38,683 nt of DNA from an uncultured Bacteroidota bacterium (lineage in GTDB: Bacteria; Bacteroidota; Bacteroidia; Chitinophagales; Chitinophagaceae), in NCBI GenBank assembly GCA_903831935.1, contig CAIKZP010000143.1, forward strand, positions 1-38,683, written 5' to 3'. Of the stretch, positions 12,618 to 38,683 are shown one piece after another (the stretch's first letter is position 1; each line of letters starts with the position of its first letter). The notes beneath the pieces are model-generated. The model saw only the letters and a list, made by a program, of their open reading frames with translations. It had not been told where the DNA came from and ran no database searches. A program made the translations under genes and the position numbers.

Positions 12618-12655
12618 AGAGGATGTATCAACAAAAGATACATCCTCTTTTTTTT
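12618..12655 (+). terminator. Rho-independent terminator after yidC
   Basis: A perfect 12-bp stem AGAGGATGTATC / GATACATCCTCT with a 7-base loop AACAAAA runs into an eight-T tract (12648-12655). It begins five bases after the yidC stop codon. Confidence 0.93.
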
Positions 12656-23583: not shown

Positions 23584-25734
23584 ATGGCGGACTTGAAATT
23601 ACAACGCAACTTTGGTATTGCTGCGCACATTGATGCGGGTAAAACCACTACTACCGAGCGTATCCTACGCTACACAGGTATGATTCATAAGATTGGTGAG
23701 GTGCATGATGGTGCAGCCACAACCGACTGGATGGAACAAGAAAAGGAGAGGGGTATTACAATTACCTCAGCAGCAGTTAGCTGTGAGTGGAAGTTTCCTA
23801 CCAACAAGGGTACGGCTGATGCCAATACCAAATCTTACTATTTCAATATCATTGATACCCCAGGCCACGTGGATTTTACTGTAGAAGTAGAACGTTCTAT
23901 GCGTGTATTGGATGGTTTGATCGCACTTTTTTCTGCGGTTGATGGTGTTGAACCTCAGTCAGAAACTGTATGGCGTCAAGCTAACCGTTATAAAGTTCCT
24001 CGTATTGGATTCGTTAACAAAATGGATCGTTCAGGTGCAGACTTTTTAATGGTAGTTCATCAAGTGAAAGAAATGTTAGGTGCTAATGCAGTACCACTTC
24101 AGTTGCCAATTGGCGCAGAAGATGATTTCATTGGCGTGGTGGATTTAATTACCATGAAAGGTGTGATTTGGGATATGGAAACAGAAGGTATGACTTTCAA
24201 AGAAATTCCTGTTCCTGCAGACCTAGTTGAAGAAGCAAATGAGTGGAGAGCTAAACTAATTGAATCTGTTGCTGAATACGACGACAATTTAATGGAAAAA
24301 TTCTTCGAAGATCCTGCTTCAATTACTGAAGAAGAGGTACACGAAGCAATTCGTAAAGCTTGTATCGACTTAAGTATTGTTCCAATGATGTGTGGTTCTT
24401 CTTTCAAAAACAAAGGAGTTCAAACAGCATTAGATGCGGTATGTCGTTATTTGCCTAGCCCTGTAGATGTTGAAGACACTGTAGGGATTAATCCTGAAAC
24501 TGGCGAAACCGTTACGCGTAAACCAAATGCAAAAGAACCTTTTGCTGCTTTGGCTTTTAAAATCATGACTGATCCTTTCGTTGGTCGCTTGGCGTTCTTC
24601 CGTTGCTACTCTGGTCATTTAGATGCTGGTTCTTATGTACTAAATGTTAGAAGTGGTAAAAAAGAGCGTATCAGCCGTATCATGAAAATGTTTGCGAACA
24701 AACAAAACCCAATCGATTTTATCGAAGCAGGTGATATTGCAGCAGCAGTAGGATTTAAAGAAATTAAAACGGGTGATACTTTGTGTGATGAAAATCATCC
24801 AATCACTCTAGAGAATATGTTTATTCCTGAACCCGTTATCTCTGTAGCTGTTGAGCCTAAAACTCAAGCAGACGTTGATAAAATGGGTATGGCTATTGCA
24901 AAATTAGTGGAAGAAGATCCTACATTACGTGTAAAAACTGATGAAGATACTGGCCAAACTATTTTGTCTGGAATGGGAGAATTACACCTTGAAATTATCG
25001 TTGACCGTATGCGTCGCGAATTCAAAGTAGAAATCAACCAAGGTAATCCACAGGTTGCTTATAAAGAGGCATTCGGAAATACTATTGAGCACCGTGAAGT
25101 GTTGAAGAAACAGTCTGGTGGTCGTGGTAAGTTTGCCGATATTCAATTTGCAATCGGACCAGCTGATGCTGAGTGGTTAACTGAAAATCCAGGAAAAGCT
25201 TTCCAATTCAAAAACGATTTGTTTGGTGGATCAATTCCAAAAGAATTTGTTCCTGCTATTCAAAAAGGATTTGAAACTTCAATGACAACTGGCGTTCTTG
25301 CCGGATACCCTGTAGTTTCTATGAAAGTCCGTGTGTTCGACGGTAGCTACCACCAAGTGGATTCAGATGCAATGTCTTTTGAATTGTGTGCTAAAGGCGG
25401 TTTCCGCGAAGCAGGACGCAAAGCAAAACCAACTTTGCTTGAACCAATCATGCGTGTTGAAGTAGTTACCCCTGATCAATACATGGGTGATGTTACCGGT
25501 GACTTGAACCGTCGTCGTGGAATGTTAGAAGGTATGGATACCCGTGGTAATGCACAGGTAATTAAAGCGAAAGTGCCTTTGAGCGAAATGTTTGGTTATG
25601 TAACCCAATTGCGTTCAATGTCTTCTGGTCGTGCATCTTCTACCATGGAATTCAGTCATTATTCTCCTGCACCTAATAATATTGCTGAAGAAGTAATAGC
25701 AAAGGCTAAAGGAAAAGTAAAGTCTGAAGACTAG
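23584..25734 (+). CDS. fusA: Elongation factor G
   Basis: This translocation GTPase has 716 residues, in the usual EF-G range of about 690-720. The G1 motif AHIDAGKT is at residues 14-21, and [17 protein letters not shown] is the switch I region. G3 is DTPGH and G4 is NKMD. Domains II to V follow, with [10 protein letters not shown] and the domain IV loop region [12 protein letters not shown]. The C-terminus has [20 protein letters not shown]. It stands alone between two intrinsic terminators with its own promoter, so its expression can be set apart from rpsL-rpsG and the S10 genes. No tuf gene follows, unlike in E. coli. Confidence 0.98.
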
Positions 25735-25760
25735 TAGTATTATAAAAAACAATGATATAC

Positions 25761-25791
25761 AGCCCTGCTCTTAATTGAGTAGGGCTTTTTT
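25761..25791 (+). terminator. Rho-independent terminator after fusA
   Basis: AGCCCTGCTC (25761-25770), loop TTAATT, GAGTAGGGCT (25777-25786): ten pairs with one G-U, running into six T (25786-25791). It stands 26 bases after the fusA stop. Confidence 0.92.
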
Positions 25792-25886
25792 GTGACATAT
25801 TTGTATGGGTTTTTGCACCAAAATGCCCATTTGGGTATATTTTTCATTTTATTTTAAAGAAATTCACAAAAAACTTCTAAAAATAG

Positions 25887-25917
25887 TTGCCCAATCAATT
25901 GCAGCCCCTTACCTTTG
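25887..25917 (+). promoter_or_regulatory. Promoter of the S10 ribosomal operon
   Basis: TTG at 25887-25889, 20 bases, then TACCTTTG at 25910-25917, followed by CAACCCC. It lies directly upstream of rpsJ and has the same core as the rpsL and fusA promoters. Confidence 0.8.
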
Positions 25918-25921
25918 CAAC

Positions 25922-25939
25922 CCCAATCAGAAAATTGGG
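25922..25939 (+). promoter_or_regulatory. Hairpin at the predicted 5' end of the rpsJ mRNA
   Basis: CCCAAT (25922-25927), loop CAGAAA, ATTGGG (25934-25939): six perfect pairs followed by TTTTG. The predicted transcription start is within a few bases of 25922-25925, so the hairpin would sit at or very near the 5' end of the message. It ends eight bases before the rpsJ ATG. It could protect the RNA or gate translation; this is inference. Confidence 0.45.
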
Positions 25940-25947
25940 TTTTGTAT

Positions 25948-26253
25948 ATGTCTCAAAGAATCAGAATCAAATTACAATCTTACGATCACAATTTAGTAGA
26001 CAAGTCTGCTGAGAAAATCGTTAAAACCGTTCGTAGTACTGGTGCAGTAGTTACAGGTCCAATTCCTTTGCCAACGCATAAGAAGATCTTTACTGTACTT
26101 CGTTCTCCACACGTAAATAAGAAAAGTCGTGAACAGTTCCAGTTAGCTACTCATAAGCGCTTATTGGATATCTACACTTCTTCTTCTAGAACAGTAGATG
26201 CCTTAAGCAAATTAGATTTGCCATCAGGTGTGGAAGTTGAAATCAAAGCATAA
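25948..26253 (+). CDS. rpsJ: 30S ribosomal protein uS10
   Basis: The protein has 101 residues from the ATG at 25948 ([15 protein letters not shown]); an in-frame upstream start at 25915 overlaps the promoter and is rejected. The conserved blocks [20 protein letters not shown] and [15 protein letters not shown] identify S10, part of the 30S head and also a transcription partner of NusB/NusG. It is first in the S10 operon here but is followed by an unusually long gap before rplC. Confidence 0.97.
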
Positions 26254-26415
26254 TCTGCAGTAAGTTAGCCAAGTTGGCAACCACTTCAGAAACAACAAAG
26301 AGTTCTTATACAAATTATATTCACCTACCAAACCGCATAGCGGCCAAAGTAGCTCTGATTAAAGAAAGCCATAAAAGTTAAAGGTCTAGGCCAATAGCTC
26401 AAATGGACTAACATA

Positions 26416-26441
26416 TAAACAGGCCCTTCGAGGTTTGTTTA
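26416..26441 (+). other. Ten-pair hairpin in the rpsJ-rplC spacer
   Basis: TAAACAGGCC and GGTTTGTTTA enclose the loop CTTCGA; two of ten pairs are G-U, which pair on RNA of this strand only. This strand bias hints at an RNA element. No T tract follows, so it is not a terminator. Confidence 0.5.
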
Positions 26442-26512
26442 CTACCGGTACTTCCTCTTCAAAATTAATTTTTTGGAAACAAAGGAAAAGGTCGCTAGTC
26501 AACAAGGATTGA

Positions 26513-26533
26513 ATTTCGCTTCATCGGCGAAAT
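26513..26533 (+). other. Seven-pair hairpin upstream of rplC
   Basis: ATTTCGC, loop TTCATCG, GCGAAAT: perfect pairing, ending 37 bases before the rplC ATG. The spurious upstream start at 26532 lies inside it. Confidence 0.5.
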
Positions 26534-26570
26534 GTCCTACATACCTCCGCGGGGCACAAACCGCAAAACG

Positions 26571-27188
26571 ATGAAAGGAATTATTGGAAAAAAAATTGGT
26601 ATGACCAGCATCTTCTCTGAAGATGGCAAGCAAATTGCTTGTACCATTATTGAAGCTGGTCCAAATACCGTTACTCAGGTTAAAACCTTAGAGACAGACG
26701 GCTACAACGCTATTCAATTAGCAGTTGGTGACAAAAAAGACAAACGCGCTACTAAAGCTGAGATTAATCACTACGCAAAAGCTCAGACCTCCGCAAAAAA
26801 ATTCGTTAAAGAATTCCGCAACTATTCAATAGAAAAAGCTTTGGGTGAAACCGTAACGCTAGACATTTTCGCTGAAGGCGATAAAGTTGAAGTTGTTGGT
26901 ACCACTAAGGGTAAAGGTTTCCAAGGTGTTGTAAAACGCCATGGTTTCTCTGGTGTGGGTGAAGCATCTCACGGACAACATGATCGTCAAAGAGCTCCAG
27001 GTTCTATTGGTGGTTCATCTTATCCTGCAAGAGTGTTTAAAGGAATGAGAATGGCTGGAAGAATGGGTAATGACAGAGTGATGTTGAAGGGCTTGAAAGT
27101 GGTAAAAATATTTTCTGAAAAGAATTATATACTAGTAAGCGGTTCAGTTCCTGGACATAACGGATCAATCGTTTTAATCCAGAAGTAA
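26571..27188 (+). CDS. rplC: 50S ribosomal protein uL3
   Basis: The protein has 205 residues from the ATG at 26571 (MKGIIGKKIGMTSIF); an upstream ATG at 26532 adds 13 residues not found in the family. The block HGQHDRQRAPGSIGGSSYPA followed by RVFKGMRMAGRMG is the L3 extension reaching towards the peptidyl-transferase centre; it includes the glutamine region methylated in other bacteria. L3 starts 50S assembly. rplD follows after 21 bases. Confidence 0.97.
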   Translation: MKGIIGKKIGMTSIFSEDGKQIACTIIEAGPNTVTQVKTLETDGYNAIQLAVGDKKDKRATKAEINHYAKAQTSAKKFVKEFRNYSIEKALGETVTLDIFAEGDKVEVVGTTKGKGFQGVVKRHGFSGVGEASHGQHDRQRAPGSIGGSSYPARVFKGMRMAGRMGNDRVMLKGLKVVKIFSEKNYILVSGSVPGHNGSIVLIQK

Positions 27189-27209
27189 TCACACAATAAT
27201 CTGAAGAAA

Positions 27210-27845
27210 ATGCAAGTAGACGTATTAACTATAAAAGGAGAGAAAACCGGTAGAACGGTAGAATTACCTGCAGAGGTATTTGGTATCGAGCCTAATGATC
27301 ACGTGATCTATTTGGCAGTAAAGCAGTATTTAGCTGCTGGTCGTCAAGGTACACACAAAGTAAAAACACGTGCCGAAGTTCAAGGTGCTAGTCGCAAGTT
27401 GCACAAGCAAAAAGGAACTGGTGGTGCTCGTAAAGGTAATATCCGTAACCCTTTGTATAAAGGTGGTGGTACTATCTTCGGACCAAAACCACACTCTTAT
27501 GATTTTAAATTAAATCGTAAAGTGAAAGACCTAGCAAAAATTTCAGCTTTAAGCCATAAAGCAAAAGATAACGCCATTTTTGTTATTGAAGATGTTACTA
27601 TGGAAGTGCCTAAAACCAAAGAATTGGTTGCAGCAATGAAAAGTTTGAATTTGTTTGATAAAAAAACATTGATCGTGTTGCCAGAATACAACGACAATTT
27701 GTATTTGAGCACTCGTAATATTCCAAATATCGCTAGCACACTTTTAGCTGATATCAATACCTACGAAATAATGAACGCAGATGTATTGGTGTTAACTGAA
27801 AACACAGCAAAAATATTTGCAGATAACGACGCAGTAGTTGCTTAG
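27210..27845 (+). CDS. rplD: 50S ribosomal protein uL4
   Basis: The protein has 211 residues. The long exit-tunnel loop is clear at about residues 46-90: GRQGTHKVKTRAEVQGASRK, then QKGTGGARKGNIRNP. This loop narrows the peptide tunnel and is a macrolide-sensitivity site. In E. coli, L4 also represses the S10 operon through a leader hairpin; whether it does so here is unknown, but the long spacer before rplC would be a candidate target. rplW follows after 53 bases. Confidence 0.97.
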   Translation: MQVDVLTIKGEKTGRTVELPAEVFGIEPNDHVIYLAVKQYLAAGRQGTHKVKTRAEVQGASRKLHKQKGTGGARKGNIRNPLYKGGGTIFGPKPHSYDFKLNRKVKDLAKISALSHKAKDNAIFVIEDVTMEVPKTKELVAAMKSLNLFDKKTLIVLPEYNDNLYLSTRNIPNIASTLLADINTYEIMNADVLVLTENTAKIFADNDAVVA

Positions 27846-27898
27846 TTAACTGATTAAATTGAATGAATTTTTAAGATTAACGTTTCAACACAATATAA

Positions 27899-28198
27899 AT
27901 GAAACCTTCAGAAATATTAGTAAAACCGATTTTAACTGAAAAAGCAAATGCTCAGCAAGAAAAATTGCGCAAGTATGCTTTTAGAGTTAGCCGTAAGGCA
28001 AATAAACTTGAGATCAAAAAAGCAGTAGAAGATTTTTACGGAGTTACCGTATTAGATGTAAACACTGTGGTTGTTCCTGGTAAAAATAAAACACGTTATA
28101 CAAAAGCTGGTTTTATTCAAGGAATGAAATCTGCTTACAAAAAAGCACTGGTAACAGTAGCTGAAGGTGAGACGATTGATCTTTACGCAAATATTTAA
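27899..28198 (+). CDS. rplW: 50S ribosomal protein uL23
   Basis: The protein has 99 residues. The N-terminal ILVKPILTEKANAQ and the block YAFRVSRKANKLEIKKAVED are typical of L23, as is VNTVVVPGKNKTRY. L23 lies at the tunnel exit and is the docking site for trigger factor and the signal recognition particle. It lies between rplD and rplB as in most bacteria. Confidence 0.96.
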   Translation: MKPSEILVKPILTEKANAQQEKLRKYAFRVSRKANKLEIKKAVEDFYGVTVLDVNTVVVPGKNKTRYTKAGFIQGMKSAYKKALVTVAEGETIDLYANI

Positions 28199-28245
28199 TT
28201 TATAGCTTACGGAGCTGAAAATTCCGTAGAAAAAAAGAAAAACAA

Positions 28246-29085
28246 ATGGCACTTAAAAAGTACAAACCGATTACCGCAGGAACTCGTTGGAGAGTCGGTA
28301 ACGCGTACGCTGAAATCACTACTAACGAACCTGAAAAAAGTTTGTTAGAATCACAAAAAAATACTGCCGGACGTAACTTCCAAGGTCGTCGAGTATCAAG
28401 ATACATGGGAGGCGGAAACAAGCACCATTATCGAATCATTGATTTCAAAAGGAACAAAAAAGATATGTCTGCTTCTGTGTTGACTATCGAGTATGATCCT
28501 AACCGTACTGCATTTATTGCATTGGTTCAGTATACCGACGGAGAGAAAAGATATATTCTTGCTCCTCAAGGTTTACAAGTTGGAGCAACCGTTATTTCTG
28601 GCGATGCTGTAGCACCTGAAATTGGTAACGCACTTCCTATGAAGAGCATGCCTTTAGGTACCAATATCCACAACATTGAATTACAACCTGGACAAGGTGG
28701 CAAAATGGCTAGAAGTGCTGGTTCATCTGCACAATTAGCTAATAAGGAAGAAAAATACGCAGTATTAAAAATGCCTTCTGGCGAATTAAGAAAAGTATTG
28801 ATTAACTGTTGCGCTACTGTAGGTGTGGTTTCTAATAGCGACCACAATCTTGAAATGGCTGGTAAAGCAGGTAAGAATCGTTGGAAAGGTATTCGTCCTA
28901 GAGTTCGTGGTGTTGCGATGAACCCAGTAGATCACCCGATGGGTGGTGGTGAAGGTAAAGCTTCAGGTGGTCATCCTCGTAGCAGAACTGGTAAATACGC
29001 CAAAGGTGAAAAAACCAGAACAAGAGGAAAAGGAAGCGACAAGCTGATTATCCAACGCAGAGATGGAAAAAAATTAGCTAAGTAA
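28246..29085 (+). CDS. rplB: 50S ribosomal protein uL2
   Basis: The protein has 279 residues and is the most conserved 50S protein. It contains [45 protein letters not shown] and the block [12 protein letters not shown] with His230, equivalent to the histidine near the peptidyl-transferase centre. The C-terminus [19 protein letters not shown] is slightly different from the E. coli form (TPWG is absent), as in many Bacteroidota. rpsS follows after 54 bases. Confidence 0.98.
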
Positions 29086-29139
29086 TTTTACAAAGCTAGA
29101 AACATAAATAACTAACAGACCAGTAAACTTATAACTATT

Positions 29140-29409
29140 ATGGGTCGTTCGATTAAAAAAGGTCCTTACGTAGACGCAAATTTAGAAGAGAAAGTTGTTG
29201 CAATTAATGATGGCAAAACAAAGAAAGGTGTTATTAAAACCTGGAGCCGTCGTAGCACAATCACTCCGGATTTTGTGGGACACACTTTTGCAGTACACAA
29301 CGGTAACAAATTCATCCCTGTTTATGTAACAGAGTTTATGGTAAGCCATAAATTAGGTGAATTCGCCCCAACACGTAACTTCAGAGGTCACGCAGGAACT
29401 AAGAAATAA
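29140..29409 (+). CDS. rpsS: 30S ribosomal protein uS19
   Basis: The protein has 89 residues: [19 protein letters not shown], then [39 protein letters not shown] and [11 protein letters not shown]19 sits on the 30S head with S13 and contacts the A-site region. Standard length and position. A possible hairpin (29421-29447) lies between it and rplV. Confidence 0.97.
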
Positions 29410-29420
29410 AAAACATTTTT

Positions 29421-29447
29421 GATCTTGGGTTTCAAAAAAACCAAGTC
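29421..29447 (+). other. Intercistronic hairpin between rpsS and rplV
   Basis: GA(t)CTTGG(g)TTT at 29421-29432 pairs with AAACCAAGTC at 29438-29447, with two single-base bulges and loop CAAAA. No T tract follows, so it is not a terminator. It may be an RNA stability or regulatory element. Confidence 0.45.
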
Positions 29448-29469
29448 ACTAATAAGAAACTAAAAGAAA

Positions 29470-29814
29470 ATGGAAGCAGTAGCTAAACTGAACAATTATC
29501 CTACAGGTCCACGCAAAATGCGTTTGCTGGCCGATGTGATCCGTGGAATGGAAGTGGAAAAAGCTTTGGCCATTCTGGAACATCACCCACAACACAATGC
29601 TACTCCTCTAGCAAAATTGCTTAAGAGTGCCATTAACAACTGGGAACAAAAGAATAGCGGCGCAAGTGCAGCTGACAGTAGCCTAGTAGTAAAAACAATT
29701 TTCGTAGATGGTGGTCGTGTTTTAAAACGGATGCGCCCGGCACCTCAAGGTCGTGGCTACAGAGTTCGTAAGCGCAGCAACCATGTAACATTAATAGTAG
29801 ATTCTAAAAACTAA
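29470..29814 (+). CDS. rplV: 50S ribosomal protein uL22
   Basis: The protein has 114 residues. The N-terminal half has [20 protein letters not shown] and [14 protein letters not shown]. The tunnel-lining hairpin reads [20 protein letters not shown]. This loop forms part of the exit tunnel with L4. rpsC follows after 15 bases. Confidence 0.97.
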
Positions 29815-29829
29815 TTGTAAAACCATTAT

Positions 29830-30636
29830 ATGGGTCAGAAAGCAAATCCAATTGGTAACAGGTTAGGTATCATCCGCGGATGGGAAAGCAACTGGTATGG
29901 TAGTAAGAAAGACTACGCATTAAAGTTGATTGAGGATCATAAGATCCGTACTTACTTGAATGCCCGTATCAACAAAGGTGGTATCGCAAAAATTGTAATT
30001 GAGCGTACTTTAGGTAAGCTAATTGTAACGATACACACTTCTAAGCCAGGTATCATCATCGGTAAAGGTGGTGGAGAGGTTGATCGTATCAAAGAAGAGT
30101 TGAAGAAATTGACAGGTAAAGATGATGTTCAAATCAATATCCTAGAAATACGTCGTCCTGAATTGGATGCTGCTATTGTAGGAGACACGATTGCTCGTCA
30201 AATCGAAAACCGTATCAACTTCAAACGTGCCACTAAAATGGCTGTAGCCTCAACTTTGCGTATGGGAGCTGAAGGAATCAAGGTAAAATTAAGCGGCCGT
30301 TTGGCTGGTGCTGAGATTGCCCGTTCTGAAGAATTCAAACAAGGTCGTGTTCCTTTGCATACATTCCGTATGGATATTGACTACGCTAACGTGTTTGCCC
30401 AAACAGTTTATGGTAAAATTGGTATCAAAGTATGGATCTGTAAAGGTGAAGTATTAGGAAAACGCGAATTGAACCCGAATTTTGTTGGTGGTAAAAACGA
30501 TATGAGTGCAAGACCAGGCGAGGAAAGACGTCCGGGTGGAGACAGAAGAGATGACAGACGCGGTGGTGGTGGAGAACGTCGTGATAACAATCGCGGTGGT
30601 GGAAACGCTGGTGGCGGAAGAGACAACAGAAGATAA
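29830..30636 (+). CDS. rpsC: 30S ribosomal protein uS3 with Arg/Gly-rich tail
   Basis: The core (residues 1 to about 215) has [17 protein letters not shown], the KH-domain loop [14 protein letters not shown] at residues 73-86, and RTLGKLIV. S3 lines the mRNA entry channel and contributes helicase activity. Total length is 268 residues against 233 in E. coli. Residues about 228-268 are a low-complexity tail rich in Arg, Gly, Asp and Asn ([19 protein letters not shown], then [11 protein letters not shown]). The tail is in frame and ends at a normal stop; base composition does not suggest a frameshift. Its role is unknown; RGG-like tails can bind RNA. Confidence 0.96.
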
Positions 30637-30710
30637 TTAAAGATGTTTAGGTTGCCGGTAACGGTACCATTAGTTAAATAAAATTGAATCGCCACTCTTT
30701 GTAAAAATTG

Positions 30711-30717
30711 AGGAGGT
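30711..30717 (+). promoter_or_regulatory. Consensus Shine-Dalgarno-like AGGAGGT upstream of rplP
   Basis: A perfect AGGAGGT lies in the 101-base rpsC-rplP gap, with 20 bases between it and the rplP ATG at 30738. This is too far for ordinary SD action. Other genes in this window start behind A-rich leaders without such a motif, so it stands out. Confidence 0.45.
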
Positions 30718-30737
30718 AGTCCAAAAAACAAAAGAAA

Positions 30738-31157
30738 ATGTTACAACCTAAAAGAAGTAAACATAGGAAACAGCAAAAAGGCCGCATTCGCGAAGTCGCT
30801 AAGCGTGGTACTGCAATTTCTTTCGGATCATTTGCATTAAAAGCTTTAGAGCCAATCTGGTTAACAAACCGTCAGATTGAATCTGCTCGTCAAGCAATGA
30901 CACGTGCTATGAAAAGAGAAGGAAATGTATGGATTCGCGTATTTCCTGATAAAATTGTTACTCGTAAACCTGCCGATGTGAGAATGGGTAAAGGAAAGGG
31001 TAACCCTGAATTCTGGGCAGCAGTAGTAGAACCAGGTCGCATCATTTTTGAATGTGATGGTGTTACTGAAGCAATTGCTAAAGAAGCAATGGAACTAGCA
31101 GCACAGAAATTACCAATTGCAACCAAATTCATCGTAAGAAGAGATTTGCAAGCTTAA
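30738..31157 (+). CDS. rplP: 50S ribosomal protein uL16
   Basis: The protein has 139 residues: [16 protein letters not shown], then [37 protein letters not shown] and a normal end. Arg82 in the RMGKGKG loop is the position that is hydroxylated in E. coli L16. It contacts the A-site tRNA elbow. It follows rpsC after 101 bases, a gap that holds an unusual AGGAGGT. rpmC follows after 18 bases. Confidence 0.97.
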
Positions 31158-31175
31158 TTATAAAACGAATTTGCA

Positions 31176-31391
31176 ATGGCAAACCAAAAAACAATCGATT
31201 TTAACAAAAGCGTAAAAGATCTGAATATCACAGACTTGAAAGCTAAGATCTCTGAAGACCAATTAAGGTTAAAAAAACTTGAGTTCGCTCATGCTATTTC
31301 TCCTTTGGAAAATCCAATGAATATCCGTGGATTAAGAAGAGACATCGCCCGTTTACAAACGGAATTGAAGAAAAAAGAAATGGGTATATAA
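31176..31391 (+). CDS. rpmC: 50S ribosomal protein uL29
   Basis: The protein has 71 residues, two long helices: DFNKSVKDLNITDLKAKISE, then RLKKLEFAHAISPLENPMNI and RGLRRDIARLQTEL. The LxFxxA..P.ENP..IR..RR.IAR pattern is diagnostic. L29 sits beside L23 at the tunnel exit. rpsQ follows after 17 bases. Confidence 0.95.
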   Translation: MANQKTIDFNKSVKDLNITDLKAKISEDQLRLKKLEFAHAISPLENPMNIRGLRRDIARLQTELKKKEMGI

Positions 31392-31408
31392 ACCATAAAT
31401 GAAAAGTA

Positions 31409-31666
31409 ATGGAAGAAAGAAATTTGCGTAAAACAAGGATCGGTGTGGTAACCAGCGATAAGATGGATAAAACCATCACAGTTGCGGTTGAAAGAAAAGT
31501 AAAACACCCTATCTACGGAAAGTTCGTAAAGAAAACAACAAAGTTTCATGCTCATGACGAAAAGAGTGAGTGTGGTATTGGCGACGTGGTTAAAATCATG
31601 GAAACTCGCCCTTTAAGCAAGACCAAACGTTGGAGACTTGTTGAAGTTGTTGAAAAAGCGAAATAA
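31409..31666 (+). CDS. rpsQ: 30S ribosomal protein uS17
   Basis: The protein has 85 residues: [60 protein letters not shown] and [11 protein letters not shown]. It is an OB-fold protein that binds 16S rRNA early in assembly. A 107-base gap separates it from rplN. Confidence 0.97.
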
Positions 31667-31773
31667 TTAAGCTTTACATGCTTTAAGCAGTTGTTCATTC
31701 AATCGCTAAAGCCTCTGAAAATTAAAATTCTGTAAATGCGTTGGGGTTAAAGCCATCGCAAAACTTTAAAAAA

Positions 31774-32142
31774 ATGATCCAGCAAGAAAGCAGATTAAAT
31801 GTAGCTGATAACAGTGGCGCTAAAGAAGTGCTTTGTATCAGAGTTCTTGGGAACAGCGGACAGGATTATGCCAAAATTGGCGATAAGATTGTTGTAAGTA
31901 TAAAATCAGCTATCCCAGCCAGTGCAGTTAAAAAAGGCACTGTATCAAAAGCAGTTATTGTTCGTACTAAAAATAAGTTACGTCGTAAAGATGGTTCTTA
32001 TATTCGTTTCGATGATAATGCAGTAGTATTATTGAATAACTCAGACGAACCTCGTGGTACACGTATCTTTGGACCAGTCGCTAGAGAATTACGTGACAAA
32101 GGATTTATGAAAATTATTTCTTTGGCACCAGAAGTTCTGTAA
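31774..32142 (+). CDS. rplN: 50S ribosomal protein uL14
   Basis: The protein has 122 residues from the ATG at 31774 ([19 protein letters not shown]), the exact family start; an in-frame TTG at 31741 would add 11 residues and is rejected. Blocks [20 protein letters not shown] and [20 protein letters not shown] are typical. L14 forms an intersubunit bridge and binds the silencing factor RsfS in other bacteria. Confidence 0.97.
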
Positions 32143-32196
32143 ACAAATATTTAGTTAAGCGTTTAGCGTTTAGCATCCAGCTTTAAGCATATAAAA

Positions 32197-32535
32197 ATGA
32201 GTAACAGATTTAAACCCAAATTCAACATCAAAAAAGGCGACACAGTTGTTGTGATAGCCGGCGATGATAAGGACTTGAAAAAGCCACGCAAAGTGTTGGA
32301 AGTGATCATTGATAAAGGCCGCGTAGTAGTGGAAGGTGTTAATATCGCAACTAAGCACACAAAGCCGTCGGCTTCAAATACCAAAGGTGGTATCGTTAAA
32401 GTTGAAGCAGCCATCAACATCAGCAATGTGCAGTTGTGGGATGCTAAAACTGGCGAGCCAACCAAAGTTACCCGTTCAAGGGAAACTGGAAAATTAGTTC
32501 GTATATCTAAAAAATCAGGGGAGGTAATCAAATAA
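32197..32535 (+). CDS. rplX: 50S ribosomal protein uL24
   Basis: The protein has 112 residues: [20 protein letters not shown] (the KOW motif) and [20 protein letters not shown], then [14 protein letters not shown]. It is an assembly initiator of the 50S subunit. Its stop codon overlaps the rplE start by one base (TAATG), indicating translational coupling. The only other zero-gap arrangement in the cluster is none, so this junction is the tightest. Confidence 0.96.
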
Positions 32536-33110
32536 TGAGTACTGTAAAATACACTCCAAGATTAGCTGATAAGTATACCAAAGAGGTTATACCTGCGCTA
32601 ATGAAAAAGTTTGCATACAAAAGTATTATGCAAGCGCCTAAACTAGAAAAAATTTGTATCAACCGTGGAGTAAACGGTGCTGTTACTGATAAGAAATTAG
32701 TAGATGTTGCAGTTGAAGAACTAAACACTATTACTGGTCAGAAAGCAGTTCCAACTATCTCTAAAAAAGATATCTCAAACTTCAAATTACGTAAAGGAAT
32801 GCCAATTGGTGCTCGTGTAACGTTAAGAGGCGAAAAGATGTTTGAATTTTTAGACCGTTTGGTATCTGTTGCTTTACCACGTGTACGTGATTTCAAAGGA
32901 ATTTCTGACAAGGCATTTGATGGCCGCGGTAACTACACTTTAGGTGTTACTGAGCAAATCATTTTCCCAGAAATCGATATCGATAAAGTAAATAAAATTA
33001 CTGGTTTAGATATCACTTTTGTTACTTCTGCGAACACTAATGAAGAAGCATACGAATTATTGAAAGAGCTAGGAATGCCTTTCAAAAACATCAAAAAAGA
33101 TAATAACTAA
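32535..33110 (+). CDS. rplE: 50S ribosomal protein uL5
   Basis: The protein has 191 residues, a little longer than E. coli L5 (179). It has [60 protein letters not shown] and [21 protein letters not shown]5 binds 5S rRNA and touches the P-site tRNA. It starts within the rplX stop codon. Confidence 0.97.
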
Positions 33111-33122
33111 TAACAGCATAAC

Positions 33123-33392
33123 ATGGCAAAAGAATCAGTAAAGGCCAGACAAAGAAAGCGTGAGAAAATGGTAGCTCAATATGCTACTAAAAGAACCGCT
33201 TTGAAAGCAGCTGGAGACTACGCAGGTTTGGATTTACTTCCAAAAAATGCATCACCAGTACGTTTGAAAAATCGTTGTCAATTGACAGGCCGTCCAAGAG
33301 GGTATATCCGTTACTTCGGATTATCAAGGATTATGTTCCGCGATATGGCTTTAAACGGAATGATTCCAGGTGTTAAAAAAGCAAGCTGGTAA
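33123..33392 (+). CDS. rpsN: 30S ribosomal protein uS14 (zinc-free form)
   Basis: The protein has 89 residues: [20 protein letters not shown], then [20 protein letters not shown] and [20 protein letters not shown]. Only one cysteine is present and the CxxC pairs of the zinc-binding type are absent, so this is the C-minus form that does not need zinc. It lies 12 bases after rplE. Confidence 0.97.
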
Positions 33393-33396
33393 ACTT

Positions 33397-33414
33397 TTAT
33401 CCCTTCAGGGGTAA
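33397..33414 (+). other. Intercistronic hairpin between rpsN and rpsH
   Basis: TTATCCC, loop TTCA, GGGGTAA: seven pairs including one G-U. It starts four bases after the rpsN stop. No T tract follows. Confidence 0.45.
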
Positions 33415-33452
33415 TTGTAAACAAATTTTAGAACTGATTTAATTTAACAAAT

Positions 33453-33851
33453 ATGGTAACTGATCCTATAGCAGATTTCTTAACCAGAATTCGGAACGCT
33501 CAGATGGCTGGTCACAGAATTGTTGAAATTCCTGCTTCCAACCTAAAGAAACGCATGACTGAAATTTTGTATGAGCAAGGATATATCCTTAAATACAAAT
33601 TTGAAGAAGATAGCAAACAAGGTTTAATTAAGATCGCATTAAAATACGATCCTATTTCTAAACAACCTGCTATTCGCGCGTTAGAAAGAATTAGCCGTCC
33701 GGGATTGCGTCAATATGCAAAACCTGCAGAAATTAAACGCGTTATCAATGGTTTAGGCGTAGCTATTTTAAGTACTTCAAAAGGAGTATTAACAGATAAG
33801 CAAGCTAAAGCTGAGAACGTAGGTGGCGAAGTACTTTGCCATATCTATTAA
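33453..33851 (+). CDS. rpsH: 30S ribosomal protein uS8
   Basis: The protein has 132 residues: VTDPIADFLTRIRNAQMAGH, then EIPASNLKKRMTEILYEQGY and the C-terminal GLGVAILSTSKGVLTDKQAK, GGEVLCHIY. S8 is a primary 16S rRNA binder. In E. coli it represses the spc operon at the rplE leader; nothing here proves this, but spacer hairpins lie on both sides of the gene. Confidence 0.97.
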   Translation: MVTDPIADFLTRIRNAQMAGHRIVEIPASNLKKRMTEILYEQGYILKYKFEEDSKQGLIKIALKYDPISKQPAIRALERISRPGLRQYAKPAEIKRVINGLGVAILSTSKGVLTDKQAKAENVGGEVLCHIY

Positions 33852-33863
33852 TCAAATAAAAAA

Positions 33864-33885
33864 CCATTGGTTTTCCATTGGTTTT
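33864..33885 (+). repeat. Tandem 11-base repeat forming a terminator-like hairpin after rpsH
   Basis: CCATTGGTTTT occurs twice in direct tandem (33864-33874 and 33875-33885). As RNA the two CCATTGG parts can pair with one U-U mismatch around a TTTT loop, followed by TTTTC. It may be a weak terminator or a pause between rpsH and rplF in a 122-base gap. Confidence 0.5.
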
Positions 33886-33973
33886 CTATTATATAAGCTG
33901 GTTTGACAATTAAGCTTTTTAGTCGGAGCTGAACACGAATCAGGATTTCACTAATCATTAATTTTAAACGACT

Positions 33974-34528
33974 ATGTCTAGAATTGGAAAAAAACCGGTA
34001 GAAATACCAGCAGGTGTTACTGTTAGCCTTTCGGCCGACAATACCATCACTGTTAAAGGACCAAAAGGTTCTTTATCACAAACTATCGATAGAGATATTA
34101 CAGTAGAAATTACTGCAACTCAAGTTGAGTTTAAACGTCCTACCGATCAAATTCGTCACCGCGCAATGCACGGTTTGTACAGAGCATTAGTTGGTAACCT
34201 TGTAAAAGGTGTTACTGAAGGATATAAAAGAGATCTTGAATTAGTAGGGGTAGGTTATAAAGCAGTGAATACTGGTAATTTATTAGACCTTGCTTTAGGA
34301 TATTCTCACAATATTATTTTTGAAATTCCTTCTGAATTAAAAGTAACTACGCTTACTGAAAAAGGACAGAATCCAAAAATATTCTTAGAAGGTATTGACA
34401 AACAATTGATTGGTCAAGTTGCCGCTAAATTACGAAGCTTACGTAAACCTGAACCATACAAAGGAAAAGGTGTGAAATATGCTGGTGAAATACTAAGAAG
34501 AAAAGCAGGTAAATCAGCTGGTAAATAA
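33974..34528 (+). CDS. rplF: 50S ribosomal protein uL6
   Basis: The protein has 184 residues: SRIGKKPVEIPAGVTVSLSA, ITVKGPKGSLSQTIDRDI, HGLYRALVGNLVKGVTEGYK and the C-terminal LRKPEPYKGKGVKYAGEILR. L6 is near the GTPase-associated centre. It is preceded by a 122-base gap with a terminator-like repeat, so it may be at a second expression level within the spc cluster. Confidence 0.97.
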   Translation: MSRIGKKPVEIPAGVTVSLSADNTITVKGPKGSLSQTIDRDITVEITATQVEFKRPTDQIRHRAMHGLYRALVGNLVKGVTEGYKRDLELVGVGYKAVNTGNLLDLALGYSHNIIFEIPSELKVTTLTEKGQNPKIFLEGIDKQLIGQVAAKLRSLRKPEPYKGKGVKYAGEILRRKAGKSAGK

Positions 34529-34576
34529 TTAGTAAGAAAAAAAAGTACTAACAAGCATCCGGCAGAATCGGGTGTT
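34529..34576 (+). other. Two hairpins between rplF and rplR
   Basis: TTAGTA (34529-34534) pairs with TACTAA (34546-34551) across an A-rich loop. AGCATCCG (34554-34561) pairs with CGGGTGTT (34569-34576), eight pairs with two G-U. They fill most of the 63-base gap. No T tract is present. Confidence 0.4.
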
Positions 34577-34591
34577 ATAAAATAAAATAAG

Positions 34592-34945
34592 ATGAATTCT
34601 AAATTGGTTCAAAGGCAAAAAATCAGGTATCGCATCCGTAAAAAGATTGCTGGTACTGCAGTAAAACCACGCCTTTCTGTTTTTAGAAGTAATGCAGAAA
34701 TTTACGCACAATTAATCGATGACGATAATGCGGTTACAATTGCTTCTGCGTCTTCAAGAGACAAAGATATTGCTGCTCAAAAAGTTACTAAAACTGAGAA
34801 ATCTAAATTAGTAGGAGCTGCAGTAGCTACAAAAGCTATCGCATTAGGTTTATCCGCTGTAGTTTTTGATAGAGGTGGTAACTTATATCATGGTCGTGTG
34901 AAATCTGTAGCCGATGGCGCCAGAGAAGCAGGTCTTCAATTCTAA
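34592..34945 (+). CDS. rplR: 50S ribosomal protein uL18
   Basis: The protein has 117 residues: [40 protein letters not shown] and [20 protein letters not shown], then EAGLQF at the end. L18 binds 5S rRNA together with L5. rpsE follows after 29 bases. Confidence 0.97.
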
Positions 34946-34974
34946 TTTGCTAACAACAATTAATAGTTAGATAA

Positions 34975-35496
34975 ATGTCTAAAGTAAACGTAAATAAGGT
35001 AAAAGCCGGTGGTGACATGGAACTCAAAGAAAAAGTAGTTGCCATCAACCGCGTAGTTAAAACCACTAAAGGTGGACGTACCTTCAGTTTCTCTGCACTA
35101 GTAGTAGTAGGAAATTCTAATGGTATTGTAGGCCAAGGATTAGGTAAAGCAAAAGAAGTACAAGAAGCTATTGCTAAAGGTATTGATGATGCAAAGAAAA
35201 ATCTTACTAAAGTTCCAGTTATGCACGGTACTATACCGCACGAACAATGGGCTAAAGAAGGAGCAGCAAAAGTGTTAATTAAGCCAGCTGCACACGGAGC
35301 GGGTGTAATTGCAGGAGGCAGCATGCGTGCTGTTTTGGAAAGTGCTGGTATTACCGACGTTTTGGCAAAAAGCTTAGGATCTGCAAATCCACACAATGTG
35401 GTTAAAGCAACCATCAAAGCATTAGGTTTGTTAAGAGAGCCAATACAAGTTGCTAAAACTCGTACGGTTAAATTATCAAAAGTATTTAACGGATAA
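34975..35496 (+). CDS. rpsE: 30S ribosomal protein uS5
   Basis: The protein has 173 residues: [40 protein letters not shown], then [20 protein letters not shown] and [20 protein letters not shown]5 guards decoding fidelity together with S4 and S12. No known spectinomycin-resistance deletion is obvious in the loop near [10 protein letters not shown]. Confidence 0.97.
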
Positions 35497-35548
35497 TAAT
35501 CAAATCAGTCAAATCTATTTAACAATAGTTGACAGAAAAAGATAGACC

Positions 35549-35731
35549 ATGAAAAAGATTAAAATAACACAAGTAAAAAGCGGGATCGACAGACCACAGC
35601 GTCAGAAACTTACACTGATAGCTTTAGGTTTGAAAAAGCTAAATGCTTCTAAAGAAGTTGAAGCTACTCCACAAATATTAGGAATGGTTAACAAAGTTAG
35701 CCATCTAGTAAAAGTTGAAGAAATCGCTTAA
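35549..35731 (+). CDS. rpmD: 50S ribosomal protein uL30
   Basis: The protein has 60 residues: [20 protein letters not shown], then [20 protein letters not shown] and [14 protein letters not shown]. Usual bacterial length and position between rpsE and rplO. A G/C-rich hairpin lies in the following gap. Confidence 0.95.
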
Positions 35732-35746
35732 TTATTTATTCAATCT

Positions 35747-35765
35747 GCGAGGGGTGATTCCCCGC
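35747..35765 (+). other. GC-rich hairpin upstream of rplO
   Basis: GC(ga)GGGG (35747-35754), loop TGATT, CCCCGC (35760-35765): six G-C pairs with a two-base bulge. It is the most GC-rich stem in the ribosomal gaps and ends 21 bases before the rplO ATG. No T tract follows. Confidence 0.5.
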
Positions 35766-35786
35766 TAAGTACAAAATCAGTTTAAG

Positions 35787-36236
35787 ATGAAACTACACAC
35801 ACTAAAACCAGCCGCTGGTTCGGTTCACAAAGAAAAACGTATTGGTAGAGGAGAAGCATCTGGTAAAGGTGGTACTTCTACAAAAGGTAATAAAGGTGGT
35901 CAAAGCCGTGCCGGTTATAAAAGCAAAATGGCTCACGAAGGTGGTCAGATGCCAATCCAACGTCGTATTCCTAAGCGTGGATTTAAAAACATTAACCGTG
36001 TTGAGTACAAAGTGTTCAACTTAGGTCAATTAGACCAATTAGTTGAGAAGTATGGTTTCACAGAAGTTTCTCTTGAAAACTTATACATCAACGGTTTAAT
36101 TAGCCGCACAGATAAAGTAAAAATACTAGCAACTGGCGAATTGAAAGCACAACTTTCATTCAAAGTGAACAAAATAAGCGACAAAGCCAAAGCATCAATT
36201 GAAGCAGCTGGCGGAACTGTTGAAATAGTAAAGTAA
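35787..36236 (+). CDS. rplO: 50S ribosomal protein uL15
   Basis: The protein has 149 residues. The glycine-rich N-terminal arm is clear: LKPAAGSVHKEKRIGRGEAS, GKGGTSTKGNKGGQSRAGYK and GGQMPIQRRIPKRGFKN. The C-terminal globular part ends EAAGGTVEIVK. It is the last ribosomal-protein gene of the window and is followed by a strong terminator-like hairpin before secY. Confidence 0.97.
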   Translation: MKLHTLKPAAGSVHKEKRIGRGEASGKGGTSTKGNKGGQSRAGYKSKMAHEGGQMPIQRRIPKRGFKNINRVEYKVFNLGQLDQLVEKYGFTEVSLENLYINGLISRTDKVKILATGELKAQLSFKVNKISDKAKASIEAAGGTVEIVK

Positions 36237-36253
36237 TTTTACTGTAACTTTCC

Positions 36254-36279
36254 AGACGCATCGGTGATGCGTCTTTTTT
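36254..36279 (+). terminator. Terminator-like hairpin between rplO and secY
   Basis: AGACGCATC (36254-36262), loop GGT, GATGCGTCT (36266-36274): nine perfect pairs running into six T (36274-36279). It has all features of an intrinsic terminator, yet the secY start is only 35 bases downstream and no clear promoter lies in between, so partial read-through is likely. Confidence 0.85.
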
Positions 36280-36314
36280 GGTTTTGAGGCATTAACTTCT
36301 AACAAATAGTATCA

Positions 36315-37661
36315 GTGAAAAAATTAGTTCAGACTTTAAAGAATATTTGGGCGATTGAAGATCTACGTAGTAAGATTGTTGTTACACTAACTTTCGTATT
36401 ATTATATCGCTTAGGAAACCACATTGCCTTACCAGGTATGGATCCAAACGCTATTGAAGCAGCACAACGTGCTACTAAAAGCAATGGTCTATTAGGTATC
36501 TTCGACATGTTTGCAGGTGGTGGATTTTCTCAAGCCTCTATTTTGGCTTTGGGTATTATGCCTTATATCTCTGCTTCGATTTTTATGCAATTGATGACCA
36601 TCTTGGTTCCTCAATTACAAAAAGTTCAAAAAGAAGGAGAAAGCGGTCGTAAAAAAATTAACCAATGGACACGTTACTTAACTGTAATTGTTACTGTTTT
36701 TCAAGCGGCAGCTTATGTTGGTTATTTAAATAGTCCTGGATATGCAGAAGCTATTTTAGTGGCTTACAAACCATATTTCTGGTTTTCTACAATCGTTACA
36801 CTTACAGCAGGTACTTTGTTTGTAATGTGGTTGGGTGAAAAAATCCAAGACAAAGGATTGGGCAATGGTACTTCTATTATTATCATGGTAGGTATCTTGG
36901 CTCGTCTTCCACAAAACATCATTCAAGAATTTAGCGCTAAAGGCCAAAAAGGCGGTGGCGGTTTATTGATATTCTTAATTGAAGTTGCCATACTGGTAAC
37001 TGTAATTATGGCTTTAATTATTTTGGTTCAAGGAGTACGCAAAATACCAGTTAATTATGCTAAGCAAATTGTAGGTAACCGTCAGTTTGGTGGTGCACGT
37101 CAATTCTTGCCAGTTAAAGTTAACAGTGCTGGTGTAATGCCAATCATCTTTGCTCAGGCAATCATGTTCTTGCCAACTTTGGTATCTTTTACCAATATTG
37201 ATTCAGCACAAGGTATTGTTCGCATATTCAATGACCACAGCAATGTTTGGTACATGATTATCTATTCTGTAATGGTAATTGGATTTACTTTCTTGTATAC
37301 TGCTTTGATTTTTAATCCAAAACAAATTTCCGAAGATTTAAAACGCAACAATGGATTTGTACCTGGTGTTAAACCTGGTCAGCCTACTGCCGATTATATT
37401 GGATCTATCATGGATAAAATTACTTTACCTGGTGCTATATTTTTAGCCTTGGTTGGTATTCTTCCAGGATTTGCGCAACGCTTAGGTGTTACGCAAGGAT
37501 TCAGTTCATTCTTTGGAGGAACTTCTTTATTAATTATGGTAGGTGTAATTTTAGATACATTGCAACAAATTGAAACACATTTATTAATGCGTCAATACGA
37601 TGGATTAATGAATAGCGGAAGAATTCAAGGACGTCAAACAGTGTCTACTTCAACGATCTAA
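36315..37661 (+). CDS. secY: Preprotein translocase subunit SecY
   Basis: The protein has 448 residues and about ten membrane segments. The start is a GTG (MKKLVQTLKNIWAIEDLRSK). It has RLGNHIALPGMDPNA, the plug region after it (GLLGIFDMFAGGGFSQASIL), LGIMPYISASIFMQL, WLGEKIQDKGLGNGTSIIIM and a cytosolic loop NPKQISEDLKRNNGFVPGVK. The C-terminus LMRQYDGLMNSGRI is typical. It is the channel of the Sec translocon and works with SecA and YidC; the latter is also in this window. Expression is probably tuned by the hairpin between rplO and secY, and a terminator follows the gene. Confidence 0.98.
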   Translation: MKKLVQTLKNIWAIEDLRSKIVVTLTFVLLYRLGNHIALPGMDPNAIEAAQRATKSNGLLGIFDMFAGGGFSQASILALGIMPYISASIFMQLMTILVPQLQKVQKEGESGRKKINQWTRYLTVIVTVFQAAAYVGYLNSPGYAEAILVAYKPYFWFSTIVTLTAGTLFVMWLGEKIQDKGLGNGTSIIIMVGILARLPQNIIQEFSAKGQKGGGGLLIFLIEVAILVTVIMALIILVQGVRKIPVNYAKQIVGNRQFGGARQFLPVKVNSAGVMPIIFAQAIMFLPTLVSFTNIDSAQGIVRIFNDHSNVWYMIIYSVMVIGFTFLYTALIFNPKQISEDLKRNNGFVPGVKPGQPTADYIGSIMDKITLPGAIFLALVGILPGFAQRLGVTQGFSSFFGGTSLLIMVGVILDTLQQIETHLLMRQYDGLMNSGRIQGRQTVSTSTI

Positions 37662-37680
37662 TTACTTTATTCGATATTGA

Positions 37681-37720
37681 TAAACCTGTCTGGCTTATAC
37701 CTGACAGGTTTATTTTTTTT
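37681..37720 (+). terminator. Rho-independent terminator after secY
   Basis: TAAACCTGTC (37681-37690), 12-base loop, GACAGGTTTA (37703-37712), then eight T (37713-37720). The stem is perfect over ten pairs. It separates secY from map. Confidence 0.9.
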
Positions 37721-37742
37721 AACCATGAGCAGAAGACCAACT

Positions 37743-38546
37743 ATGATATTTTATAAAACAGATGCAGAAGTTGCTTTAATGAAAGAAGCCGCATTATTGG
37801 TAAGTAAAACACTTGCCGAAGTGGCTAAGGTGTTAAAGCCTGGCATGACAACTTTAGACATTGATACCTTGTGTGCCAACTATGTAAAGTCTCATAACGC
37901 GGTTTTGTCGTTTTATAAATACCATGGTTATCCGCATAATATTTGTGCATCGGTTAATGATGTGGTGGTGCATGGATTTCCAAATGATGTTCCCTTAAAA
38001 AATGGAGATATTGTTTCTATTGATTTGGGTGTGATATTAAATGGATGGCATGGAGACCATGCGTATACTTTTATTTTAGGAGAAGTGAGCGAAGCGCTTT
38101 TGCAGCTTGTAAAAGTTACAAAAGAGTCATTATATAAAGGCATTGAAAAAGCAATTATCAATAATAGAGTTGGAGATATATCCTTTGCCATTCAAGACCA
38201 TACAGAGCGCAAATACGGCTATGGTGTTGTACGTGAATTAGTAGGACATGGATTGGGTAGAAGCTTACACGAAGATCCTCAAGTGCCCAATTATGGCAAG
38301 CGTGGCAGCGGTTCAAAAATGAAAGAAAATTTAGTGCTTGCTATTGAGCCAATGATTAATTTAGGTACGCGCGATGTGTTTACTGATACCGATGGTTGGA
38401 CTGTGAAAACCGCTGATGGTAAGGTTTCTGTGCATTTTGAACATGATGTATGTGTAAAAAAAAATGAGGCATTAATATTGTCTGATTTTAGTATTATAGA
38501 AGCTGCTGAAAAAGCAAACCCACACTTAAATTCTTCTTATTGTTAG
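37743..38546 (+). CDS. map: Type I methionine aminopeptidase
   Basis: The protein has 267 residues from the ATG at 37743 (MIFYKTDAEVALMKEAALLV). Alternative in-frame starts at 37725 and 37677 are less likely; the latter lies in the terminator region. It removes the N-terminal methionine of new proteins at the ribosome exit. All metal ligands are visible: Asp94, Asp105, His169 (GHGLGRSLHEDP), Glu202 (AIEPM) and Glu234 (HFEHD). His77 matches the catalytic histidine. A short purine-rich AGAAGA lies about ten bases before the start. In most bacteria infA and rpmJ come next, but here a flavoprotein gene does. Confidence 0.95.
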   Translation: MIFYKTDAEVALMKEAALLVSKTLAEVAKVLKPGMTTLDIDTLCANYVKSHNAVLSFYKYHGYPHNICASVNDVVVHGFPNDVPLKNGDIVSIDLGVILNGWHGDHAYTFILGEVSEALLQLVKVTKESLYKGIEKAIINNRVGDISFAIQDHTERKYGYGVVRELVGHGLGRSLHEDPQVPNYGKRGSGSKMKENLVLAIEPMINLGTRDVFTDTDGWTVKTADGKVSVHFEHDVCVKKNEALILSDFSIIEAAEKANPHLNSSYC

Positions 38547-38573
38547 GGGGATATCAATTTTGAAAAACTGGCT

Positions 38574-38683
38574 ATGCAAAAACAATTAGTTGTAATTGGT
38601 GGAGGTGCTGCCGGATTTTTCTGTGCAGTAAATGCTGCTAGGATGCACCCTAATTTGCAAGTAACCATTATTGAAAAATCCAA
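38574..38683 (+). CDS. FAD-dependent oxidoreductase of the HI0933/BaiN-like family (partial, 5' end)
   Basis: The first 36 codons are visible before the window ends. They read MQKQLVVIGGGAAGFFCAVN, then AARMHPNLQVTIIEKS. GGGAAGFFCA is the dinucleotide-binding GxGxxG region, and the VTIIEKS end is the second strand with the acidic residue that binds the FAD ribose. The GAAGFFCAxxAA pattern is typical of the HI0933/BaiN-like flavoproteins. The substrate is not known for most members. It starts 27 bases after map in the same direction. The truncation is the window edge, not a mutation. Confidence 0.75.
   Translation, partial: MQKQLVVIGGGAAGFFCAVNAARMHPNLQVTIIEKS

Follow-up and report, generated by a model that had tools for sequence, protein, structure and literature searches.

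The hairpin and T-run between the rplO and secY genes of the DNA analysed here (the window, 38,683 nucleotides, contig C143 of a 3.51 Mb genome) are, on balance, probably a family-specific intrinsic terminator, itself probably partial, lying at the end of ribosomal-protein transcription and kept by selection. As polymerase leaves rplO, the hairpin would form in the RNA at the T-run and a share of the transcripts would stop there; the ribosomal-protein mRNAs would thereby gain a definite 3′ end, and less secY would be supplied by read-through. In most sampled members of the family, a sigma-A-type −7-like box abuts the stem, which would let secY transcription also begin independently, at the 5′ arm or a few bases into it, and a transcript begun there would lack the outer pairs of the hairpin.

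SecY is required in far smaller amounts than the ribosomal proteins, and in many bacteria its gene shares an operon with theirs. A family-wide terminator with an abutting box at this boundary would offer a natural series for measuring secY against ribosomal output. Bacteroidia ribosomes are described as not recognising Shine-Dalgarno sequences (available text of PMC9976891), which makes control of output at the mRNA level plausible.

The rplO-secY boundary in the window

Genes and gap. The genes, which we take from their translations to be rpsL, rpsG, fusA, rpsJ ... rpmD, rplO, secY and map, are followed by an oxidoreductase-like frame. The rplO stop ends at 36236 and the GTG of secY stands at 36315, a gap of 78 bases with a folding z of −2.8. 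The features used below are:

35787..36236, + strand, rplO (L15), from the open reading frame list and named from its translation; it closes the S10-spc ribosomal-protein run here
36245..36252, + strand, −7-like box TAACTTTC, one base off the Bacteroidota consensus TAnnTTTG, with no −33 TTTG at the usual spacing
36254..36274, + strand, stem-loop of 9 pairs with loop GGT, dG −12.2 kcal/mol, from folding and family covariation
36274..36279, + strand, T-run of six T, from the sequence, directional in relatives
36280..36314, + strand, untranslated stretch of 35 bases before secY, without a consensus promoter
36315..37661, + strand, secY with a GTG start at 36315, from the open reading frame list; the only SecY-family match of the genome
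37673..37680, + strand, weak box-like GATATTGA ahead of the secY-map hairpin
37679..37714, + strand, another terminator-type hairpin, in the secY-map gap, GATAAACCTGTC...GACAGGTTTATT with a 12-base loop and then a T-run; similar layout in many relatives

Hairpin. Positions 36254-36279 read AGACGCATC-GGT-GATGCGTCT-TTTTT, nine Watson-Crick pairs around a 3-base loop. The first T of the run (36274) is also the 3′ base of the outermost pair, which leaves five unpaired T, with GG next; 35 bases (36280-36314) then separate the run from the secY GTG. Tested as an intrinsic terminator, the site has both a stable hairpin and an adjoining T-run on the transcribed strand. The first-pass annotation had pointed out this nine-pair stem with six T, which is present and is conserved in relatives, and had seen no clear promoter in the last 35 bases before secY, where indeed none of consensus type occurs.

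Scans. A strict scan of the whole window (at least nine Watson-Crick pairs, at least five GC pairs, a loop of 3-8 bases, at least five T in 6) returned 2 hairpins, at 12618-12648 and 36254-36274, against 0 in 20 dinucleotide shuffles; apart from the site before secY, the window thus has only the former, of 12 pairs. Under loose criteria, the stretch 25000-38683 holds 12 terminator-like sites against a shuffled mean of 11.4, so that such sites are not commoner than chance; from the rpsJ start to secY on the + strand, the sole other site in this loose scan is a 6-pair one at 26925. We considered a dispersed palindromic repeat and rejected it, as the genome has one perfect copy; places with 3 mismatches number three, and a reversed control pattern gives two.

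Conservation in the family

Loci compared. We assembled 110 secY loci, from the best 80 of 593 relatives and 30 of 53 places. Removal of 4 that fall short of the secY start, 1 with scant upstream DNA and 3 exact duplicates left 102 distinct loci. On the SecY tree, 88 of these (the window copy, L085, included) lie on one side of a branch with support 100 and are called the family here, with the other 14 as outgroup; because several rows are near-copies that were kept, counts over the 88 rows overstate independence. The family side includes records titled Sediminibacterium, Ferruginibacter, Niastella, Chitinophaga and Taibaiella. Among the best 80 of the 593 relatives, the nearest SecY matches are metagenome-assembled genomes titled Bacteroidetes (95 per cent), Flavihumibacter (89) and Sediminibacterium (88), on which basis we assign the window's genome to Chitinophagaceae. 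Separately, we compared a further 20 genomes that belong to the order but to other families.

End of the ribosomal-protein run. In the window's genome, the alpha cluster (infA, rpmJ and rpsM with rpoA and rplQ) is found on a separate contig, C37, with its own TAnnTTTG, and for this reason rplO is taken as the end of the ribosomal-protein run. By motif search, infA, rpmJ or rpsM follow map in the 14 outgroup rows, in L060 and in the five Chitinophaga rows; the same search places none of them after map in the remaining family rows, several of whose loci end too early.

Hairpin with T-run. A looser rule asks for 6 or more pairs, an energy of −5.5 kcal/mol or lower and 4 or more T among the 6 bases that follow; by it, 66 of the 88 distinct family gaps between rplO and secY carry a hairpin with a T-run, compared with 3-9 in ten shuffles, and 22 have no qualifying hairpin. 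A stricter perfect-stem rule, which overlooks most Chitinophaga hairpins (they are bulged), still finds 52 of 88, where shuffles average 0.88 and reach 3 at most; the strict rule matches 6 of 313 other gene ends lying upstream in these loci. The rplO-secY gaps of the 14 outgroup loci, at about 0-27 bases, are too short to hold the hairpin. No terminator-type hairpin occurs in any of the 20 genomes from the other families of the order, 2 of which have gaps of more than 100 bases. In a few relatives (L031, L052, L057), extra sequence stretches the gap to 121-175 bases.

Covariation. An alignment of 38 rows, built without structure and omitting L109, shows compensating double changes in 7 of 8 pairs; double-change cells number 24, where shuffles give 4.7 and slid controls 0-6. 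Since the rows were mostly picked for bearing a hairpin, the percentage paired is inflated. Such compensation supports an intrinsic terminator but does not by itself define one.

The box 5′ of the stem

Directly 5′ of the stem, the family has a box of the form TAnnTTG, mostly TAnnTTGC, or GATATTTGC (the GAnnTTTGC form). Pattern matching finds it in 65 of 88 family gaps, against a shuffled mean of 18.5 and maximum of 28, a count in which the window's own form is not included. With a narrower pattern set, the box is found in 58 of 85 gaps against 10 of 313 other gene ends, and 57 of 64 sites start 5-11 bases past the rplO stop. TAnnTTTG and TAnnTTGY combined account for 41 of 85 gaps, the perfect TAnnTTTG being rare in the family (seen in L026 and L050). 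Taken together with the hairpin, and with the box scored as present by hand in four TAACTTTC rows, the 88 gaps divide into 52 with both parts, 14 with the hairpin only, 17 with the box only and 5 with neither.

The Bacteroidota −7 box is given as TAnnTTTG in PMC7366714, and for Flavobacterium psychrophilum PMC9723704 places TAnnTTTG and the variant TAnnTTGY (SM5 box) at −12 to −5. Our literature search found no published start-site data for the family. In 400 kb of a congener (G017), TAnnTTTG occurs 52 times in sense orientation upstream of genes and 8 times in a similar length of control DNA, and TAnnTTGY 31 times against 12; since both are enriched before the congener's genes, a promoter role is plausible for the box in its family form. 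In the same sample, TAnnTTG followed by a purine (17 against 20 in the control) is unenriched, and TAnnTTTC (14 before genes against 10) is hardly enriched.

The window's own box makes a weaker case. TAACTTTC agrees with TAnnTTTG at 5 of 6 fixed positions and so falls short of the −7 box, and it also departs from the SM5-type TAnnTTGY, which many relatives do carry. At spacings of 19, 20 and 21 upstream of it stand GAAA, TGAA and TTGA in place of a −33 TTTG; in Flavobacterium johnsoniae, the −33 element is likewise reported as not identifiable (available text of PMC7366714). No perfect TAnnTTTG or TAnnTTGY occurs in the 260 bases before secY of the window. In the same genome, the boxes before rpsL, fusA, rpsJ and infA are perfect TAnnTTTG, unlike the secY site. 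We regard TAACTTTC as a weak form, with promoter activity less credible for the window than for the family.

In Chitinophaga and Taibaiella-like loci, the hairpin is present and the 260 bases before secY contain no TAnnTTTG or TAnnTTGY. Because the window's box is one base off and these loci are boxless, secY may still be supplied by read-through; its supply could come from read-through, from a start of its own or from both. The first-pass annotation had made secY reliant on read-through, which suits the boxless loci but overlooks the family box upstream of the stem. Attenuation at the hairpin, an idea of the first-pass annotation, may also be at work and is among the live readings.

Predicted start sites

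Geometry. We set the predicted +1 at 5 bases after the box, using a broadened box list (also TAnnTTTN and TAnnTTCN), by which 46 of the 88 loci could be scored. The predicted +1 falls inside the 5′ arm in 42 of these; 2 have it at the first base of the arm, and the other 2 have it before the stem. Mean hairpin energy over the 46 loci is −10.0 for the whole hairpin and −5.1 when counted from the predicted +1, and the RNA from the predicted +1 to the T-run would be 20-28 bases long in 45 of 46. In the window, the predicted +1 is 36256-36257, within the 5′ arm, from which the hairpin energy would be −6.6 to −7.8 instead of −12.2. Unit length need not prevent termination of so short an RNA: tR2 in a 38-bp transcription unit terminates in vitro with a measured efficiency of 33 per cent (PMC6978380), and so a short transcription unit does not rule termination out. 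The hairpin, its directional T-run, covariation and conservation, the conservation of the box, the geometry and the separate alpha cluster are all computed results; from them we infer termination, its efficiency, promoter activity and the start site.

Possible complete separation of two units. The hairpin might end nearly all ribosomal-protein transcripts and the box drive a separate secY unit, whose transcripts, begun within the stem and so lacking the outer pairs, would escape the terminator. The conserved and tightly placed box, a predicted +1 inside the 5′ arm with its loss of folding energy, the box kept in the 17 gaps that have no hairpin, the similar layout before map in many relatives and an alpha cluster no longer dependent on read-through past secY all speak for this. 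The weak box of the window, the missing −33 element and the boxless Chitinophaga and Taibaiella-like loci speak against it, as does the rarity of the layout elsewhere: counted over TAnnTTTG and TAnnTTGY (GAnnTTTG-like forms left out) in the 400 kb sample, a box is followed by a hairpin and T-run at 1 of 100 sense and 1 of 69 antisense sites, so that a general rule of this kind is rejected. Nearly complete separation seems to us doubtful in view of these points.

A possible terminator bypassed by its own start. Equally tentative is a module in which the +1 in the terminator's 5′ arm sorts the transcripts. Read-through RNA from the ribosomal-protein genes, containing the whole hairpin, would halt; box-started RNA, without the outer pairs and about 20-28 bases long at the T-run, would continue into secY; and polymerase freed at the T-run, about 27 bases from the box, could reinitiate there. 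If true, reinitiation would make the output of secY a set proportion of ribosomal-protein transcription, and the layout may recur before map. Recycling of RNA polymerase and reinitiation after intrinsic termination are described for E. coli in vitro and as not yet observed in vivo (available text of PMC6978380); by comparison, a terminator and a promoter on one short stretch of DNA, as predicted here, would permit such recycling. The component parts are ordinary, and the interplay of box and hairpin is our proposal.

Direction of the T-run

Stems sought without a T rule (at least 7 pairs) are found in 44 of the 88 gaps. In 39 of the 44, the 6 bases counted from the last stem base include 4 or more T; in 5, the corresponding 6 bases 5′ of the stem include 3 or more A. 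A T-run on the 3′ side with few A on the 5′ side is, as we read it, the signature of a one-way intrinsic terminator. These counts bear on whether the hairpin instead stabilises an end, either as a 3′ barrier for processed ribosomal-protein mRNA or as a 5′-terminal hairpin protecting secY mRNA. A predicted +1 at the stem would suit such a role, as would L036, L037, L054 and L064, where strong hairpins have no qualifying T-run; the one-sided T-run in most of the stems detected without a T rule is, however, what termination leads one to expect, and we consider a purely stabilising end improbable.

History on the SecY tree

For the tree states, the box was set to present by hand in the four TAACTTTC rows (L085, L005, L086, L087). 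With these four hand-set states, we count 7 gains or losses of the box along the SecY tree and 16 of the hairpin; after the early branches, the box is the steadier element. L060 and the Chitinophaga and Taibaiella-like rows branch first. Since the latter two have the hairpin without the box, the hairpin probably predates the box; L060, with neither part, gives no help here. For co-evolution of box and hairpin, the tree holds too few differing pairs for judgement. One loss is seen in G017 (L091), whose gap has neither box nor hairpin and is 29 bases long; in G011 (L092), a close relative, it is 75. The 29-base gap resembles the end of the 75-base gap, a natural loss of about 46 bases, which makes the module dispensable.

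A regulated attenuator, in which a protein or leader structure disables the terminator according to need for SecY or ribosomal proteins, would gain from the position of the hairpin between two functions, and ribosomal leaders with conditional terminators are known in bacteria (available text of PMC7247131). The 16 changes in hairpin presence fit it poorly. Exact complements (at least 6 bases) of either arm in the 740 bases around the site are just the arms themselves, leaving no alternative partner of that length, and no known RNA family in Rfam matches the hairpin region upstream of secY. Regulation of this kind, including the antitermination factor proposed in the first-pass annotation, appears to us quite unlikely.

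That the palindrome serves, as DNA, as the operator through which a repressor controls a secY promoter is very improbable: a GACGCAT core is frequent across the aligned rows and located at the predicted +1, but the sequence varies while pairing persists (GGTGCATC, GACACATT, ACCCCG), the T-run is mostly one-sided and the genome has a single perfect copy.

Relation to known systems

The partial terminator that we favour shares with intercistronic intrinsic (Rho-independent) terminators and attenuators a perfect stem containing GC pairs, a short loop and a directional T-run, and the hairpin upstream of secY is similar to other terminator-like sites of a congener. It differs from an ordinary intrinsic terminator in its position between ribosomal-protein genes and secY, in its family-wide compensating changes and in the box that often abuts it. 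The family box, which fits TAnnTTGY or GAnnTTTG, is close to the −7 box TAnnTTTG of the Bacteroidota sigma-A promoter (B. thetaiotaomicron, F. psychrophilum) and to the SM5 box TAnnTTGY of F. psychrophilum; the window's TAACTTTC matches neither fully, has no −33 element and would place the +1 in a hairpin stem.

Candidate leaders for L13, S4, S15 and S16 in Bacteroidia and Flavobacteria (PMC7247131) are likewise structured RNAs in Bacteroidota ribosomal-protein operons; here we find a single short hairpin with a T-run. Neither secY nor rplO is mentioned by name in the main text of PMC7247131. A literature search that covered few subscription journals, and papers in part, recognised no published rplO-secY module of box and hairpin.

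Second hairpin before map and other sites

An automatic rule, which gets some map starts wrong, reports the secY-map hairpin in 52 of 99 rows, the outgroup rows among them. Directly beside this hairpin, relatives often have TAnnTTTA or GAnnTTTG.

In the stretch 25910-25950, a small hairpin (25922-25939) comes within 5 bases downstream of the rpsJ box TACCTTTG, with TTTT just ahead of the rpsJ start, and a separate terminator-like hairpin follows fusA at 25761-25786. The rpsM-rpsK part of the alpha cluster (L137 4815-4985, G000:C37) has several hairpins, one of them terminator-like at 4911-4928, TCCCGAA-TCAG-TTCGGGA-TTTTT.
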